Source of the DNA: Hexactinellida sp. DTS-2022
Taxonomy: Eukaryota; Porifera; Hexactinellida
Direction: 5' to 3'
Assembly (NCBI GenBank): GCA_028753945.1
Contig: JAPNXP010000004.1
Coordinates: 3,162,001 to 3,226,000 of the forward strand
Length of the DNA stretch: 64,000 nucleotides
Under the pieces are notes generated by a model that worked only from the letters and a program-made list of their open reading frames with translations, was not told the origin of the DNA and did not search any database. This document shows, one piece after another, positions 11,823 to 62,685 of the stretch (the stretch's first letter is position 1; the number at the start of each line of letters is the position of its first letter). The translations under genes and the position numbers were made by a program.

Positions 11823-13480
11823 ATGAACAACTCTGAAGCTTTTCAGTTTTTCTGCGAACACAGAACACAAAGTTCCCGCTCGATTGCCAACCAATTTATT
11901 TCATCTTTCGGCTTCGAACGAAATGATTTGAATTTCTTCCGTTTGAAGTTTACTGAGATTCAGAAAGAGAGGGACTTATTCGATAAGAACTTGGACCTTG
12001 ATACTTGGAATTCTATGTATTTTTGTCATATTCCGAAGAGACCTAAGTTGAGCACCGCTTCTACCATAAGCTTTGAAGAAGACCTCAATGTTATCAAAAG
12101 AAAAGCGATTGGTGATCTAACCACTAAAGCGTTGAAGAATCGTCTATTTCCTCAAATCGCATCTAGATACTGTTGCTCAGAACGAAGGTGTATCTCCTAA
12201 GACAATTGCTACTTATCTCTTATTACTTTGCTCTAATGAGGACCTCGACTTTAGTAGTGCTAAGTTTTGCAAAGAGATAATCGATAAGGGAAATTATTCT
12301 AATATGTGCCCACAATTATCGCTGGATAAATCCGCGTTTCTTATTGACTCCCTTGAGATTGGCAAAAGTAAGTATCTAGAACTCCGACGTACTTTGGTCT
12401 CAGATGATTTCAAATTACCAGGATATAATAGAGTTGAGGTCCATCGGTCTCAAATTAACTTGGTTGATGAGGTGCGGCTGATTCATAGGGAATTTCCGAT
12501 TGGAGTAGGGATTTCTTACACAAAACTATTCTCCCATACTGTTGAGCGCATTGTAATGAACTTAAGTGTTGGTAATCAAGACTTTCCTCTCAAAGTTAAA
12601 ATGTCCGATGGCCTAGATGGATCAGGGTGTCATGGAGTGTATCAACAAGCAAGAAGTTATCCTGAGCTCTCAAAGTCATTTTTGTTATTTGTGTTTAAAA
12701 TTAACCCCATCCTAAATGCAAACAACAATATTCTGTGGAAACCGAATAAACTTAATTCACCATATTCTACTAGACCTGTTGCTCTTTTAGCCATTCCGGA
12801 GAATGAAGAAAATTTGAAGTTTTTGATGGATTCACTAATAAATCCAGAAACTTAGCGATTGAAGAAAGCGGGTTGTGTTTACAGAATGTTCATGCCGAGG
12901 TTAAGATAATTCGTTCTCATTTCGACACGAATATGGCAAAAATCTTAAGCGGCGCTGGTGGAGCAAGTTGCCTATTGTGTACAGCGTCATTCGCTCAAAT
13001 ACATGACATTAGTTTTGTTAAAACTGGCTATCCTGTGAATAGGACAATTCATGATGCTCTTGCTTTATTTGAGGAGGTTGATGAGGATGAATTTTTGTCT
13101 TTCCATCAAATCAGAGATTCGATTTAACTCACAAGCCAATCTCAGATAAAGATATAGTTTAGCTTCTCCTCTACATGCTTATCTGAGAACTTTCAGCTGG
13201 TTCTTATTATTAGTCTCCCATTTACAGTGTGGTGCTAAAAAAATGGTCTCCGACTTCGTTAAAAATTGTAAGTGCTAAGAAGTTTATTACCAACCTAATC
13301 GATGAAAAGATAAATATATCGATTGACGCACCATCAGTCCAGGGTGGAACTTCAACAACAGGAAATGTTGTTCGGAGGTGTTTCACAAGTATGGATGATT
13401 CTGTCAAAGATTTTCTTTATTGGGTTTTGACAGTTATCCCTCAAGAAAATTATCAAAATATCAATAATTTTTTTTATTAA
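11823..13480 (+). pseudogene. RAG1/Transib-like transposase, copy 1, C-terminally truncated
   Basis: It begins MNNSEAFQFF, like copies 2 (MNNIEAFNIL) and 3 (MNNQEARNIL). At least three frame changes (near 12170, 12855 and 13125) separate open pieces. These carry MSDGLDGSGCHG, matching the RAG1 region with the first catalytic Asp; NSPYSTRPVALL, like the CKPLCLML stretch of RAG1; CLLC, a CxxC matching the RAG1 zinc cysteines; and GGTSTTGNVVRRCF, like the GTTNDGNTARRFF block of Transib. The frame ends at 13480, before the LHKLLAH and catalytic Glu region, which is missing. The element's right end survives at 14667-14673. The KDZ transposon occupies its 5' region, so the left end would lie upstream of 5957, but I could not find it. 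Confidence 0.82.
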
Positions 13481-17868: not shown

Positions 17869-19535
17869 ATGAATAATATTGAAGCATTCAATATTCTAGA
17901 AGAGTGTAACAATAATACACGTGAAGCATCCGAACAGATAGTACGTGAAATTCAAATCCCTGAAACAGAACTACCATTCATCCGTCCGAAATTAATAAAT
18001 CTCAAGAATAACAGACGAGATTTCGTGAAGCGTGGGGATTTAACAACATTGGAAAGAATGCATTTACTGATAATCCTCACCCTAAGTCCGTGGTCTTGAA
18101 AAAACGAAATCTTCTTCAGATTCTTTATCTGAATCTATCCACCGAGTTGTTTTCGAAATTGACGAAAATCTTGAAATGCGAACACCACTTCTTAAGTTAC
18201 AGTATACACAAATCAGACGCCTCCTCGACTCTGTATTGTCACACATTAAGTCGCTAGCTGAGCTTGAGGAAGTTTCACAAAAGGTAATTGCATCTTTGTG
18301 CCTTCAGTTAATTGCCAACGAAGAAAATTATTATGCTACCATAAATGTGTGATAGGAAATTGTCGAAAAGGGGACTTTTCTGGAACATATTTCCACGTTA
18401 TGTGAAAGGAACTCATCATTTCACTTAGATTCTCTTTCCATCGGGAAAGTAAAGTAGAGAGTTGAGACGATTTTTAAAAGAAGACAACGTTTACATATCG
18501 TTGTATAACAAAGTCGCCAAATTTCCCCAGGAATCATGTACTGTCAATGAAATGCAATATTTCCATAAAGACTTCGAAACACCGATTGGAATCGACATTC
18601 CTTATCGATTGCTTGTTGCCCAAACCATTCGGCAAATTGTTGACATTGAAGCAATTGATACGGCCAATTACCCTCTTAAAGCGAAGCTGGTTGATGCTTT
18701 TGATGGATCTGAGTCACACACCATATACAACCAAATGAGAAACCATCCTGATATCACAACAAAAAATTCATCTTGTTTGCATTTAAGATCAATTGGCTCC
18801 AAGATACCTTTGGCAATATGATATGGAGGAATCCATCTCCAAATTCACCTTTCACTATGAGGCCAGTAGCAATAATTTATTGGCGCTAGGAGAGAATCTT
18901 GAGAATGTAGAGTATTTGATGGACTCTACTATTAATCCAGAAACGAAATTCTTGCAACTAAACGGAGTCATGTTAGCAGCGGGAAAAGTGAATGTTGATA
19001 TCACGCGTTGTTTGTTCGACACAAAAATGGCAGCTATCCTTGATGGTGCAGGCGGAGCATCTTGCCATTTATGCACCTCAACGAAAGAACAACTTACTGA
19101 CATAGAACTCATTCAACAGGGGTTTCCTATCAACCGTTCAATTGACTCGGCTAATCAGATCTTTGATTAGATAAACGAAGAAGAATTTCTCTCTCTACCT
19201 TTCAAAGAGAGGTTTGGTATAAGTTATCACATAAACCATCTTCAGATCCTAACATTCTATCAGCATCTCCTCTTCACGGCTATCTGCGGGTATTCGGGTG
19301 GTTTACGCAGCTTGTGTACCATTTACAAGATGGAGAGAAAAAATGGAGACCAACTTCACCAAATATTCGTCAGTCTATGGAATTTGTACGTAGTTTCCTA
19401 TGGGAGAAGCTAAGTATCCATATTGATTGTCCTTCTCCTCAAGGAGCCACGACTTCAACAGGGAATGTTGCTCGTAGCTGTTTTCAACAATTTGATGATA
19501 GTAAAAAGGATTTTTTTACTGGATTATCACTTTAA
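17869..19535 (+). pseudogene. RAG1/Transib-like transposase, copy 2
   Basis: Starts MNNIEAFNIL and is broken by many stops and frameshifts. Preserved pieces include DAFDGSESHTIYNQ (first catalytic Asp region), NSPFTMRPVA, GAGGASCHLCTS (CxxC zinc pair), SPLHGYLRVF and GATTSTGNVARSCF. It stops at 19535, where repeat B begins, so the zinc histidines and catalytic Glu are lost. It is more decayed than copy 3 and so is probably older. No CACAGTG terminus was found upstream. Confidence 0.82.
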
Positions 19536-19542
19536 TCCCCTG

Positions 19543-22070: not shown

Positions 22071-22076
22071 GCGATT

Positions 22077-25000
22077 CACAGTGGGGCAACATGGCTGAAT
22101 AAACAAAAATTTACCATTTTTAATTGCTAAATGATTGCGATATTCGAAATCAGAACTATTGAAAACCAAGGAATCCGAATTTTAATTACTCTAACACCAG
22201 TGGTTATGAAATAGTTTGTGGTTGAAAGTATGGTTTCTATTTTATCTAAAATATTCAATATATTTTTATTATATTAGTGACATTTACGTCATCGCCATTT
22301 GAAAACTACGAATCACACGTATTGGAATGTTGTTTGTGAGGGATCTACTATCTACTTGTTGCATTTATAAAAACATTTTGAATTATTCCGTTGAATATTA
22401 TAAACTCCTCATCAGAATTCGTAAAGCTTGTTTCACAAATACATTACAAACGGTGACACTACACTTTAAACTGTCGAAACTTATACTGATCACTGCTGAT
22501 CAAAGAAGTTAGTGATATGTGAAGACAAATATTGATATATATTTAAATTTAGTATTAATTTTAGGGTGACCAAAGATGACCAAAATATCTTTTTTGGTCT
22601 CCAGTTATACAGTTTACGCTAAAACAGTCCCATAATGCATTGTAGTAAAAAAATGTAAATTTATTATCAATCAATATTGTTAGATGTAATATTTATTTGA
22701 ACTTTTTTAGATATCAAACAAGAGAAATGGAATGCAATTAATTTGTTTCATAGAGATATTAGTGACCTAAAACAATGTAGTAATATTGGTCATAAATAAT
22801 ATAATATCTAATAAATTTTCAAAATTCTAAACATTTAATCTAAAATGAACAATCAAGAAGCAAGAAATATTCTCCAAAAGGCGGAAAATAACTGTCGTAA
22901 AGCAACCAGCGAGATGCTGGTCCAATTTGATTTACCAGAATCTCAATTTTCAATGATGAACAGGAAATTTCAGGAATTAACCACTATCCGTAGAGAGTTT
23001 GTCCGACATAATGATCTGAATAATTGGGAAATTTTGCCTTTCTATGAACATGGGGCATGTAAACCTTCAGAAAAGATGAGATCTGATGGAACAGATAAAC
23101 TGACTGATACAATTTCATTTGTTGAACCTCTCTCTAATACAAACAGGAAATCTATTTCAGCAGTTACTCTGCAAACAATAAGAACACGGCTTATGGTACT
23201 ACTCGATCATATCACTTTTCTCGCTGAGAGAGAAAATACTGACTCCAGAACAATTGCAGCTTTAGCACTCCAGTGTATCAGCAATGATAATTATGATAGA
23301 GATATAGCCAAATTATGTCGCGATGTTGCTGCGAGAACTGCACCCAATCAAGTTAACAAGTACCCATTAGAAAAAGCCTCCTTTATGTTAGATCTCTTGG
23401 AAATTGGGAAAAGGAAATACATTGACCTCCGTCGTATCTGCAAGTCAGAAGATATTCATTTTCCTGGTTACAAGAAGATTGTAGCATACAGAAATGAAAT
23501 TTGTTCAGCACAGGAAATCTCTGTCTTAAATAATGATAAGGAAATTCCATAGGAGTGAATATTCCATACTCTACTTTAGTACATAAAACAACAGAAATAA
23601 TAGTACAGTTGATTCCTTCTTGCATAGAATCTCATTACCCTTTTACTCTCACGATAGCTGATGGTTTAGATGGCTCAGGGAGTCATCGACTTTACAACCA
23701 GATTCCTACAAACCCAACCCTCTCAACGAAATCTCTCATATTATTTGCCTTCAAAGCTTTGTCCCTAATCGATAAATCTGGTAAGGAAATTTGGTCAAAT
23801 CCATGCCCTAACTCACCTTTTGTGACGAGGCCAGTTGCATTAGTATCTCAAAAAGAAAATTACGAAAATGTCAATTATCTCATGAAAACACTAATTAATC
23901 CTAAAACTTGTTTACTAGAATCTAATGGCTTAGAACTACGTGAAGGGCATGCAAATGTGATTGTAAAGAGGACTCTGTTCGATGGCAAAATGTCCGCTAT
24001 ACAAAGTGGGGCTGGAGGTGCTGTATGTCAACTATGCACAGCTAATCGCGATCAACTTAAAGATATCGAGTTTGTTAAATATGGCTTCCCCATCAATAGG
24101 CATGTAAAAGATGCAATTGACATTTTCAGTGATGTCAATCCGGAAGAATTTCTCAAGCTACCTTCTGAGATGAGATTCGATTTAACTCATCCTCCAGCCT
24201 CGGATATCAATATCCTACCTGTATCCCCACTACACAGTTATCTATGTGTGTTTAGGTGGTTTATGCTTTTAATTTACCACTTAGATGCTAATCTCAAGAA
24301 TGGTCTCCTACATCTCCAAAAATAAAAAGATCTATGGATAAAATGCGCACTTTGTTGTTGGAGAAAACAGGATTTCATATCGATCTTCCTTCCTGTGATG
24401 GAGGGACAAGTACAACTGGGAACATAGCACGATCCTGTTTTCTAAATGAAAAGGAATTCATAAAGTGGGCAACTTCTACATTATTGCACGAAGATTAGTT
24501 GTCAATATCTCTGATCAGAAGAAATCTCTCTGTTATCTTAAGACTCTATAACAGCAGTTCGAAACTTGACACATTTAAACTCAACAGTTTTTGTAAAGAA
24601 ACTTATCTATTCGTGTTAACAACATTCCCATGGGCCAGCATCACGCCATCTCTACACAAGTTATTGGCTCATTCTGTGTAACTTGTAGCAGATTATAATA
24701 ATGGATGTGGAATGAAAATATTGTCAGAGGAATGCATTGAATCTTTAAATAAATACGTTAGAAGGTACCGAGAGAAGCTATCCAGAAAATTCACGTTTGA
24801 AGATAACATTAAAGATGTATTCATGCGTATTTTATGTCAAAGTGATCCAGTTCTGGCAAGTTATAGGATGTTCACAGAAAAAAAAGAAATAAATATTTGT
24901 AAATTAAGTGAAGAAGATTTCCTTGTTAACTCGTTTATATTAGAATAGGGTATTCAATAAATTGAGGTGAATCAAATTATCAAAATGGCTTTACATGTAC

Positions 25001-25255
25001 TAGCATCATTATAAACAATGGAAATTATAAATCGAAATAGTAATTAACATTAGGTACATTATTGTAGTAAATTAAAAAAAAAATTTTTGTAAATCGCGAT
25101 GACGTGACCACAATTTATAGGGTATCCTTAGAAAAAATCTGAACATACCAAACGATTTCTCATAGTAGAAAACCCATATGTAAATAATACATTTGATAGG
25201 TCTAACTTTAACCCAAACACCTATTCAGCCATTATTGCCATTTTGCCCCACTGTG
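22077..25255 (+). mobile_element. RAG1-like transposon, 3179 bp, with CACAGTG termini
   Basis: The left end is CACAGTGGGGCAACATGGC and the right end, inverted, is CACAGTGGGGCAAAATGGC. Both then share ATGGCTGAATA, with about 10 extra bases on the right. The terminal seven bases equal the V(D)J recombination heptamer. GCGATT lies directly before the left end (22071-22076) and again at 25257-25262, one base beyond the right end. RAG and Transib elements normally make 5-bp duplications, so this is close but not exact. The element interrupts the CXC gene between its segments 1 and 2, which proves insertion. It encodes one RAG1-like protein and no visible RAG2-like (kelch) gene. Confidence 0.85.
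22845..24948 (+). pseudogene. RAG1/Transib-like transposase, copy 3 (best preserved)
   Basis: Starts MNNQEARNIL, with about 235 open residues, then a one-base frameshift near 23551, a second near 24300, and in-frame stops at about 24496 and 24679. Landmarks in RAG1/Transib order: IADGLDGSGSH (23650s, first catalytic Asp region), NSPFVTRPVALV, GAGGAVCQLC (CxxC zinc pair, ~24030), SPLHSYLCVFRWF, GGTSTTGNIARSCF (~24400), FPWASITPSLHKLLAH (H-x4-H zinc pair as in RAG1), SEECIESLNKYVRRYRE (catalytic Glu region), SRKFTFEDN and SQSDPVL-like CQSDPVLASY, as in the Transib C-terminus. RAG1 family enzymes cut and paste DNA at heptamer-bearing ends. The full length would be near 690 residues. No RING-like N-terminus was seen. 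Confidence 0.88.
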
Positions 25256-25256
25256 C

Positions 25257-25620
25257 GCGATTGAATGTACCAACCCCGTGTATAACATTCGATCAACCAT
25301 TGTGGCTCAAAGCAGTGGAAATTATCATGGCAAAATCGATGAATATTGTGTGTAGACTTGGCGGCTTTGATACAATGATAAGCTTCATGGGTGCATTGGC
25401 TCAATGATGAAGGCTCGGGATTAGAGGAAGCATTAGAAACAGCCTATGGCCCTAATGCGGTCATCCATATGATTTCAGGAAGGGCTGTTTCAAGGGCATT
25501 GCGCGCACATTTCTTAGTAGAGGCTGCATTAGTGAACAAGTTAATGATGGCAGTTTTACCATGCGAACCAAATGGAAATGAGCACTTAAACCCTAATGAG
25601 GAATCAATGGAAACACTTGA
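25257..25620 (+). pseudogene. CXC/PIN-type element gene, segment 2
   Basis: Continues segment 1 immediately after the RAG1-like element: LNVPTPCITFDQPLWLKAVE, MNIVCRLGGFDTMISFMG, then in another frame SGLEEALETAYGPNAVIHMI, GRAVSRALRAHFLVEAALVN and VLPCEPNGNE. At least two frameshifts. The conservation breaks off at about 25620 beside an inverted repeat, and the next segment starts near 28790. Confidence 0.72.
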
Positions 25621-30959: not shown

Positions 30960-31101
30960 TAAAAAGATAAAGGTTTGTTTTATTAAGGTGGATCCTTATA
31001 ATATAGATTGTGATCGGTAAATGTAGAATAATATTATCAAAACACATTTTAGAGGGTCGATATGTGTATATTTATACTCAGGAAGCTGAGTGGACACAGT
31101 G
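30960..31101 (-). repeat. Right inverted repeat of the CXC element
   Basis: The reverse complement matches 19912-20055 closely, including GGATCCACCTTAA, TTTACCGATCACAAT and CTCTAAAATGTG. Together the two copies bracket the whole decayed CXC gene, about 11 kb. Directly beyond the match is CACAGTGGCCGAAAATAGC (from 31094), which looks like a solitary RAG1-like terminus. Confidence 0.78.
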
Positions 31102-61789: not shown

Positions 61790-62685
61790 CTAAGGATCTT
61801 GCTCTTCACAGTCGAAACACTGGAATGGTTCATCTCCTACTTCCTTCAGGGTCACTTTCATGCACCTAGCGTGATACCACTGGTCGCAGAATTCGCAAAA
61901 CACCCAGTCATCGGTCTTCCGCTTTCTTCCGATCGGACAATTTCGCAACTGGCACTCTTCGCAAACGGTGTCTGATCCGTCACCAGTGGACGCTTTTGCA
62001 ACGGCTTTCTTCGCAGGGGTACTCGATGAAGCTTCACTACCAAAGGCTTTGGACTTATACTTTGCCCCAGCCTTTTCCCGCCTGCGTCTGGAAGATTCTG
62101 CGGTCAGAAACTGGGACTGGAGTAACCTTCGTCTCCTCTTCTGGGTTTCAGAGACAGCTTTGATACGACACCGGTTGCGTTCTTTGTCCTTTCTCGCGAA
62201 ATAGAGCAAGGTCTTATGTGAACAGGCTACTCCTAAGTTGGTAAGCACGCTAGCCAGAGACATAGAGCCCTCGTTGAAAGTGGTGACCGCCAGCGCTGCA
62301 GAGGCTTGGAGGTACTTCTGGCCGACACGCTTGATTTTCGGCGCGTTATGCCATAGGACGGAGTGCAGAGATTCATTCGCGTTCTGCGTCTTGCCAAGGG
62401 TTACGGCGGAACATAAAGCAATGCTCGCGAACTTCTGAAAGACATCCAAGAGGCGAGCCAGTTCTGGTGCCGTGAGGTATGGGGCCCGGAGATTCACCGG
62501 TGAAATTGTGTCGTCATCCTTTACTTCAGCAATATTCTTCCCCATATAGCACCACGAATCTCTGGTATGAGGACAGTTATCATGGTTCTCAACAAGGTGA
62601 TCGGCAAGGACGTAGAGAGCTTTCTGTATTTCTTCAGGACTCTTTCCCCTGTTCTGTACAATAACCAGCCCACTGGTTGGAGTTT
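61790..62685 (-). pseudogene. Mutator-like transposase-domain protein, C-terminal half, with PHD finger
   Basis: The frame is open from about 62685 (LVIVQNRGKSPEEIQKALYV, NHDNCPHTRDSWCYMG) through ATG 62545 to a stop at 61790. LGKTQNANESLHSVLWHNAP is the signature of the Mutator-like domain found in many arthropod and cnidarian elements. A basic linker (RKDKERNRCRIK, SRRRREKAGAKYKSK) leads to a PHD-type finger: CEECQLRNC, CEFCDQWYHARC, FQCFDC. The codon usage is richer in GC than the surroundings, suggesting a recent arrival. The N-terminal part with the first catalytic residues is missing, so I call it truncated; the retained part has no stops. Confidence 0.78.

Follow-up and report, generated by a model that had tools for sequence, protein, structure and literature searches.

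Among the transposons related to RAG1, Transibs have been divided into two subgroups by Tao et al. (2022; PMC9435367). The members of Subgroup I all possess asymmetric terminal inverted repeats (TIRs), an alpha11–alpha12 segment, and a CTT1 tail and are regarded as possible intermediates between Transib and RAG1L, while most of the previously known Transibs belong to Subgroup II. The same study reports Transib-like proteins in ctenophores, plants, fungi, and bacteria as well as hundreds in other metazoans, which are not itemized in its text and may include sponge members. In AanRAGL, a transposon of the RAG-like (RAGL) type, two conserved end elements are separated by 4 or 13 bp (PMC9435367). 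For Drosophila Transib5 and Anopheles Transib2/N1–N3, 12/23-like TIRs are reported in the review PMC8355894. Because of the Subgroup I elements and these insect reports, asymmetric ends in single-gene Transibs have to be considered as already known. Regarding the origin of the 12/23 rule, one view refers to RAG2 and the vertebrates, another to ancient asymmetric transposon ends (PMC9435367; PMC8355894). Here, we describe a RAG1-related transposon copy located at positions 22077–25255 of a 64,000-nucleotide stretch of DNA (the window) from the glass sponge Hexactinellida sp. DTS-2022 (assembly GCA_028753945.1, contig JAPNXP010000004.1, positions 3,162,001 to 3,226,000 of the forward strand) and compare it with its relatives in the same genome (112.4 Mb, 18 contigs).

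The copy in the window is a dead relic of a transposon system, and it is nearly certain that this transposon belongs to the Transib superfamily. The system is probably a cut-and-paste Transib of an ancestral-type branch near Subgroup I, with bipartite ends, in which a heptamer is followed by a distal block after 14 or 23–24 nucleotides (nt), and with a synapse formed by one short and one long end.

Bipartite ends of the transposon

The element starts with the heptamer CACAGTG (22077–22083, + strand; left or short end) and terminates with CACTGTG (25249–25255), which reads CACAGTG on the − strand (right or long end). Its terminal arms of 19 nt are 95% complementary. Searching the genome with the insert yielded two further copies of full length, 98% and 95% identical to it, along with several fragments and numerous partial matches in the range of 65%–79% identity. 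Since both other full-length copies end in the same termini, the ends of the window element are not due to chance. The insert boundaries given in a preliminary description of the sequence are confirmed, and no full-length copy with different termini was found. The left heptamer is also the same in the loci L002, L003, and L008 and in other families of related elements.

On the left side, a spacer of 14 nt (GGGCAACATGGCTG, 22084–22097, + strand) leads to the distal block AATAAA (22098–22103, + strand). The counterpart of this block is AATAGG in families B, C, and D and ATTAAG in family E, the window element representing family A. On the right side, the heptamer is separated by 23 nt (25226–25248, − strand) from the block AATAGG (25220–25225, − strand; CCTATT on the + strand). 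The sequence ATGGCTGAATA is present in both ends, its distance to the heptamer being 9 nt larger on the right than on the left; this shared block was missed by the earlier statement that nothing similar is present at the right end. The nonamer-like sequence on which that statement was based, ACAAAAATT (22103–22111, + strand), does start 19 nt past the left heptamer. As an RSS (recombination signal sequence) nonamer, however, it was rejected, because it has no right-end counterpart and its sequence is not fixed, so that it represents an A/T tract of the short end at best; the common element is the conserved distal block AATAGG. In families A, B, C, D, and E, the distal block of the short end is followed by an A/T-rich tract, so the sequence may still be of importance.

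Distances of 14 and 23 nt were also found in families B (L010), C (L026), and E (L048 and L049), whose spacer sequences are unlike, and distances of 14 and 24 nt in family D. Among the fetched loci, the spacing was 14 nt in all 10 distinct short ends, while the 14 long ends displayed spacings of 23 (11 ends) or 24 nt (3 ends); the scan behind these numbers admitted only spacings of 13–15 and 22–25 nt and is hence no test of the spacing rule. A looser scan identified spacings of 13 and 23 nt in L020.

Genome-wide, the pattern CACAGTGG-N4..33-AATAGG has 589 matches, compared with 27 for the reversed pattern. Out of these, 511 fall on three of the 30 spacings, namely 14 (170 matches, control 11) and 23 or 24 (341 matches, control 0). 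The first 100 of the 589 matches listed are distributed over the spacings 14 (32), 13 (3), 22 (3), 23 (35), 24 (21), and others (6). The ends of Transibs usually carry the sequence CACWATG. The pattern CACWATGG-N4..33-AATAGG is rare in this genome (66 matches vs. 20 for the reversed pattern), with 12 of the 66 matches at spacing 14, 23, or 24. According to these pattern counts, the heptamer of the elements is mainly CACAGTG and not CACWATG. The 40 distinct short spacers (37 strings from the first 100 of the 170 places with spacing 14 and three from the fetched loci) form 12 sequence clusters, the distance being kept while the spacer sequence changes.

The pairing of the ends was analyzed for the first 100 of the 589 matches, and convergent ends within 12 kb of each other were combined. 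A short end was combined with a long end in 22 of the 23 convergent pairings; when the labels were shuffled 20,000 times, unlike pairings numbered 11.0 on average and at no time 22. Two pairings each were made with three of the minus-strand ends; the sole long/long pairing is among these and spans ends of two families. When only the nearest partner was taken into account, all 20 pairings were unlike. Since the copies are related, the pairings are not independent events; as far as genomic sequence can indicate, the pairing is consistent with unlike pairs being functionally preferred. The majority of the 23 pairings span only approximately 1.0–1.35 kb (e.g., C1:2191915–2193051) and probably represent non-autonomous relatives mobilized in trans.

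The long end was always located 3′ of the transposase gene in the eight cases with an end nearby. These cases stem from 14 examined matches (contigs 1–5) out of 40 transposase matches in total; for the remaining six of the 14, no matched end was present. Two matches on contig 5 beyond the listed long ends and one match covering only the N-terminal part of BbRAG1L were left out of this set. The constant polarity was thus observed in eight cases and not in each of the 12 spacer clusters.

The geometry might also be merely inherited. In this case, an ordinary Transib would descend from an ancestor with a 9–10 bp insertion in one end, and its transposase would read neither block nor spacing. The families are related and form one clade in the tree described below, so that shared geometry could reflect descent. 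The spacing is not absolute (24 instead of 23 nt and 13 instead of 14 nt in some elements), and the blocks of family A are unlike at the two ends (AATAAA and AATAGG). A functional short/long rule is also opposed by the behavior of mouse RAG1, which according to PMC8355894 has no 12/23 preference in the absence of RAG2. On the other hand, the short spacers diverged into 12 clusters while block and distance were kept, and 511 of 589 matches accumulate on three of 30 spacings. Furthermore, the two ends of an individual element resemble each other in the block region in family C (ATCTTCGAATAGG) and in family E (CGATTAAG and CGATTAGG), yet this region is different between families, as expected of a binding site. 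Mere inheritance is therefore considered unlikely, albeit with some weight of its own, and the Transib with a short/long synapse is preferred.

The transposase and the question of a RAG2 partner

The transposase gene of the window element (22845–24948, + strand) encodes the RAG1/Transib landmarks in the order noted before, but it is not intact: owing to frame changes and in-frame stops, its open stretches are five in number. All four acidic residues of the catalytic site are kept in this copy, whereas some of the broken or partial clade members have not retained the full set. Several open transposase frames are found elsewhere in the genome. The family C element L026, whose DNA is approximately 66% identical to that of the window element over the long alignable parts, measures 3,665 bp and is flanked by an exact duplication of 5 bp. 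Between its CACAGTG ends, it contains one uninterrupted frame of 726 amino acids. The residues D281, E343, D385, and E639 of this protein correspond to D600, E662, D708, and E962 of RAG1. Its 42 protein relatives include six with an organism name, all from the glass sponge Oopsacas minuta. In scans of genome and viral contig collections, no relative was found.

A PDB-wide sequence search with the 726-amino acid protein retrieved HzTransib as the best match (E 6.8e-23), followed by BbRAG1L (9.2e-7) and a weak match to RAG1 (0.013). Similarly, a profile built from 22 members scored 154 bits for HzTransib, 62 for BbRAG1L, and 47–56 for the RAG1 chains. In a tree of 102 sequences, a sponge-type clade (43 sequences, most of them without organism name), insect-type Transibs (24), and RAG1L together with mouse RAG1 (35) were separated by three bipartitions with 100% support each. 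The tree includes no outgroup and no known Subgroup I member; because it is unrooted, the grouping of sponge and insect sequences after midpoint rooting is not evidence. Profile–profile comparison resulted in scores of 426 between the sponge-type clade and insect Transibs, 257 between the sponge-type clade and RAG1L, and 167 between insect Transibs and RAG1L. The preliminary description holds in that the element is related to RAG1, contains a single gene, and carries the exact RSS heptamer, whereas its assignment to a RAG1-like family rather than to Transib is not supported by the profile scores and the three-group tree. Judged by its sequence, the window element is a Transib, of the ancestral type by its features, and not a member of the RAG1L family.

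The segment following the zinc CxxC has a median length of 64 amino acids in the sponge-type clade (41 of 43 sequences measurable), 66 in RAG1L (34 of 34), and 29 in insect Transibs (24 of 24); in mouse RAG1, it comprises 63 amino acids. According to length and alignment, an equivalent of alpha11–alpha12 of the zinc region appears to be present in the sponge-type clade. Both the profile–profile scores and the zinc segment are in accordance with the suggestion that the protein is structurally intermediate between Transib and RAG. In addition, structure prediction points to an NBD-like domain in the transposase, located at residues 105–169 or thereabouts of the 726-amino acid protein. The CTT1 tail is absent in family A as well as in families C and E. 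Its motif Cx2Cx3GH was detected in 10 of the 23 testable tails of the sponge-type clade, two of which have the full published spacing Cx2Cx3GHx4C, and in 30 of 32 RAG1L tails tested, compared to none of the 21 testable tails of insect-type Transibs.

The absence of a RAG2 partner, also proposed before, is supported as far as the intact relative is concerned. Apart from one open stretch of 749 amino acids, L026 contains just one of 108 amino acids on the other strand, and hence no RAG2-sized gene. A genome-wide search for RAG2 gave no match, but neither did the control of the same search, so this negative carries little weight. Such an arrangement could also result if a RAGL transposon consisting of RAG1L and RAG2L had lost its RAG2L gene, for which the zinc segment of RAG1 length, the zinc tail of the CTT1 type that occurs in 10 of the 23 relatives amenable to this test, the NBD-like fold, and the exact RSS heptamer might be cited. 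However, RAG1L and mouse RAG1 form a separate group with 100% support, HzTransib is the best sequence match, Pfam detected no RING finger in the intact relative, and in the 3,665-bp element, the one long frame of 749 amino acids is accompanied only by the 108-amino acid frame on the opposite strand. A loss of RAG2L is thus improbable. It could also be suspected that the transposase belongs to an unrelated superfamily and that the CACAGTG terminus arose by chance, because Pfam yielded nothing useful for the window fragments and only a sub-threshold RAG1 match for the intact relative. This possibility is already contradicted by the results and can practically be discarded.

The elements of family E possess a second open frame, which runs opposite to the transposase gene and is situated between this gene and the short end (L049:1234–1704, − strand, and the matching part of L048). 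Its product is repetitive, rich in EEDR, and, by eye, coiled-coil-like; it has no Pfam match.

Target duplication and proposed transposition mechanism

The window copy is flanked by GCGATT on the left (22071–22076, + strand) and, one base off the heptamer, on the right (25257–25262, + strand). These flanks (AGAGCGATT / CGCGATTGA) were correctly described before, but they form an inexact duplication, which is not the rule for the relatives. In a set of 10 distinct insertions with both ends, comprising the window element and its relatives and compiled with a script that accepted unlike (short and long) ends only and hence no test of the pairing, seven insertions have an exact target duplication of 5 bp, while exact duplications of other sizes between 3 and 9 bp did not occur. 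L003, L020, and the copy in the window are the three insertions without exact duplication. On the basis of this set, a rule of 6-bp target duplications was rejected. L009, L010, and L011 were rejected as separate insertions; their flanks are identical, and they are therefore segmental duplicates, which were counted once. A search for empty-site paralogues of the window locus recovered only the locus itself, and the frame continuity across the joined flanks of the window element did not discriminate between duplication lengths.

For the transposition of an intact element, the following course is conceivable. A transposase dimer would cut at both heptamers using an RNase-H-fold active site with the residues D, E, D, and E as in RAG1, and cleavage would proceed via nicking and hairpin formation by analogy to RAG1 and HzTransib. 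The NBD-like N-terminal domain, as a dimer, might hold the two distal blocks. Given the displacement of these blocks by roughly one turn of the helix, a good synapse would presumably be formed only by a short and a long end. The excised element would then be inserted with a 5-bp stagger. For a short/long rule that is functional, we consider the chances to be about even or a little better. More tentatively, and with the balance of our judgment leaning against it, pairing of the 12/23 type with the exact V(D)J heptamer could be inherent to a transposase of the RAG1 type that acts without RAG2, and a dozen clusters of ends would have preserved it in an animal lineage that branched off early. The unlike blocks of family A and the RAG2 dependence of mouse RAG1 lower the odds of this reading. 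If it is true, the asymmetric signal pair with its helical-turn offset would be an ancestral transposon feature inherited by V(D)J recombination, and RAG2 would not be needed to enforce the pairing rule. The genome offers RSS-like ends of natural origin by the hundreds, with exact CACAGTG heptamers, and several open transposase frames, and a gene of RAG2 size is missing from the intact element that was inspected; the origin of the 12/23 rule thus becomes directly testable with a single protein.

Further Transib-like sequences were observed in the window. A second decayed transposase is located at 11823–13465 (+ strand), and a long-type end (14673, − strand; 23-type with two mismatches) lies downstream of it in the expected polarity. 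A third decayed transposase (17869–19540, + strand) is closest to P0018 among eight queries, and the window end scan revealed no end beside it. A fourth is represented by a fragment (151–425, + strand), whose nearest sequences, P0016/P0020, have retained the CTT1-type tail. Another 23-type end, CACAGTGG...AATAGA, was found at 31095 (+ strand), with no transposase match nearby in the window transposase scan. Unrelated to the transposons, an open frame at 61790–62545 (− strand) encodes a PHD finger (Pfam PF00628, E 2e-06).

Comparison with known systems

In the literature covered (the papers cited here and, for others, titles and abstract openings; subscription journals, figures, and supplements lie outside this scope), we found neither a glass sponge as Transib host nor hundreds of ends bearing the exact RSS heptamer nor a 14/23–24 spacing that is shared by 12 clusters of ends and has a constant polarity, the latter as seen in the eight cases mentioned above. 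A branch devoid of CTT1 that retains an NBD-like domain and the spacing was not described there, either. Two papers on genomes of glass sponges mention neither Transib nor RAG1 in their main text.

With vertebrate RAG1 and the 12/23 RSS, the system shares the identical heptamer CACAGTG, the RAG1-core fold, and two spacer classes approximately one helical turn apart, of which the short one is paired with the long one. It differs in the distal block (AATAGG instead of ACAAAAACC) and in the spacing (14/23–24 instead of 12/23); moreover, no RAG2 was seen in the element, which is a transposon and not part of an antigen-receptor system. The RAGL transposons ProtoRAG of amphioxus and AanRAGL of an alga resemble it in the CAC-type terminus and the bipartite, asymmetric ends. 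In AanRAGL, the offset of the ends is 9 bp, as is the difference between 14 and 23 here. In contrast, ProtoRAG and AanRAGL carry RAG2L, and RAG1L forms a separate group in the tree. The ProtoRAG heptamer is CACTATG and its spacing 27/31 (PMC8289069), compared to CACAGTG and 14/23–24 in the sponge.

Among the Transibs, the insect type including HzTransib (PDB 6pqn/6pqx; Subgroup II) lacks about 35 residues of the zinc region in the 24 proteins compared, and the TIRs of HzTransib are described as symmetric in PMC8289069, unlike the 14/23–24 ends found here. Transib5 and Transib2/N1–N3 are likewise Transibs in which the spacing differs from one end to the other; they are insect elements, few families of which are reported, and their distal sequence is nonamer-like according to the review PMC8355894. 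The nearest known kind is represented by the Subgroup I Transibs, with which the sponge elements share a single RAG1-like gene, asymmetric TIRs (14 vs. 23/24 here), the alpha11–alpha12 zinc segment as judged from length and alignment, an NBD equivalent, and, in part of the clade, a CTT1-type tail. The family in the window differs from Subgroup I in the absence of this tail; in addition, the exact RSS heptamer and the 14/23–24 spacing have been documented in the present genome for ends numbering in the hundreds. The comparison refers to the text of the Subgroup I paper, and some of the TIRs published in its Fig. 1g may match more closely. The elements described here point to glass sponges as hosts of ancestral-type Transibs.
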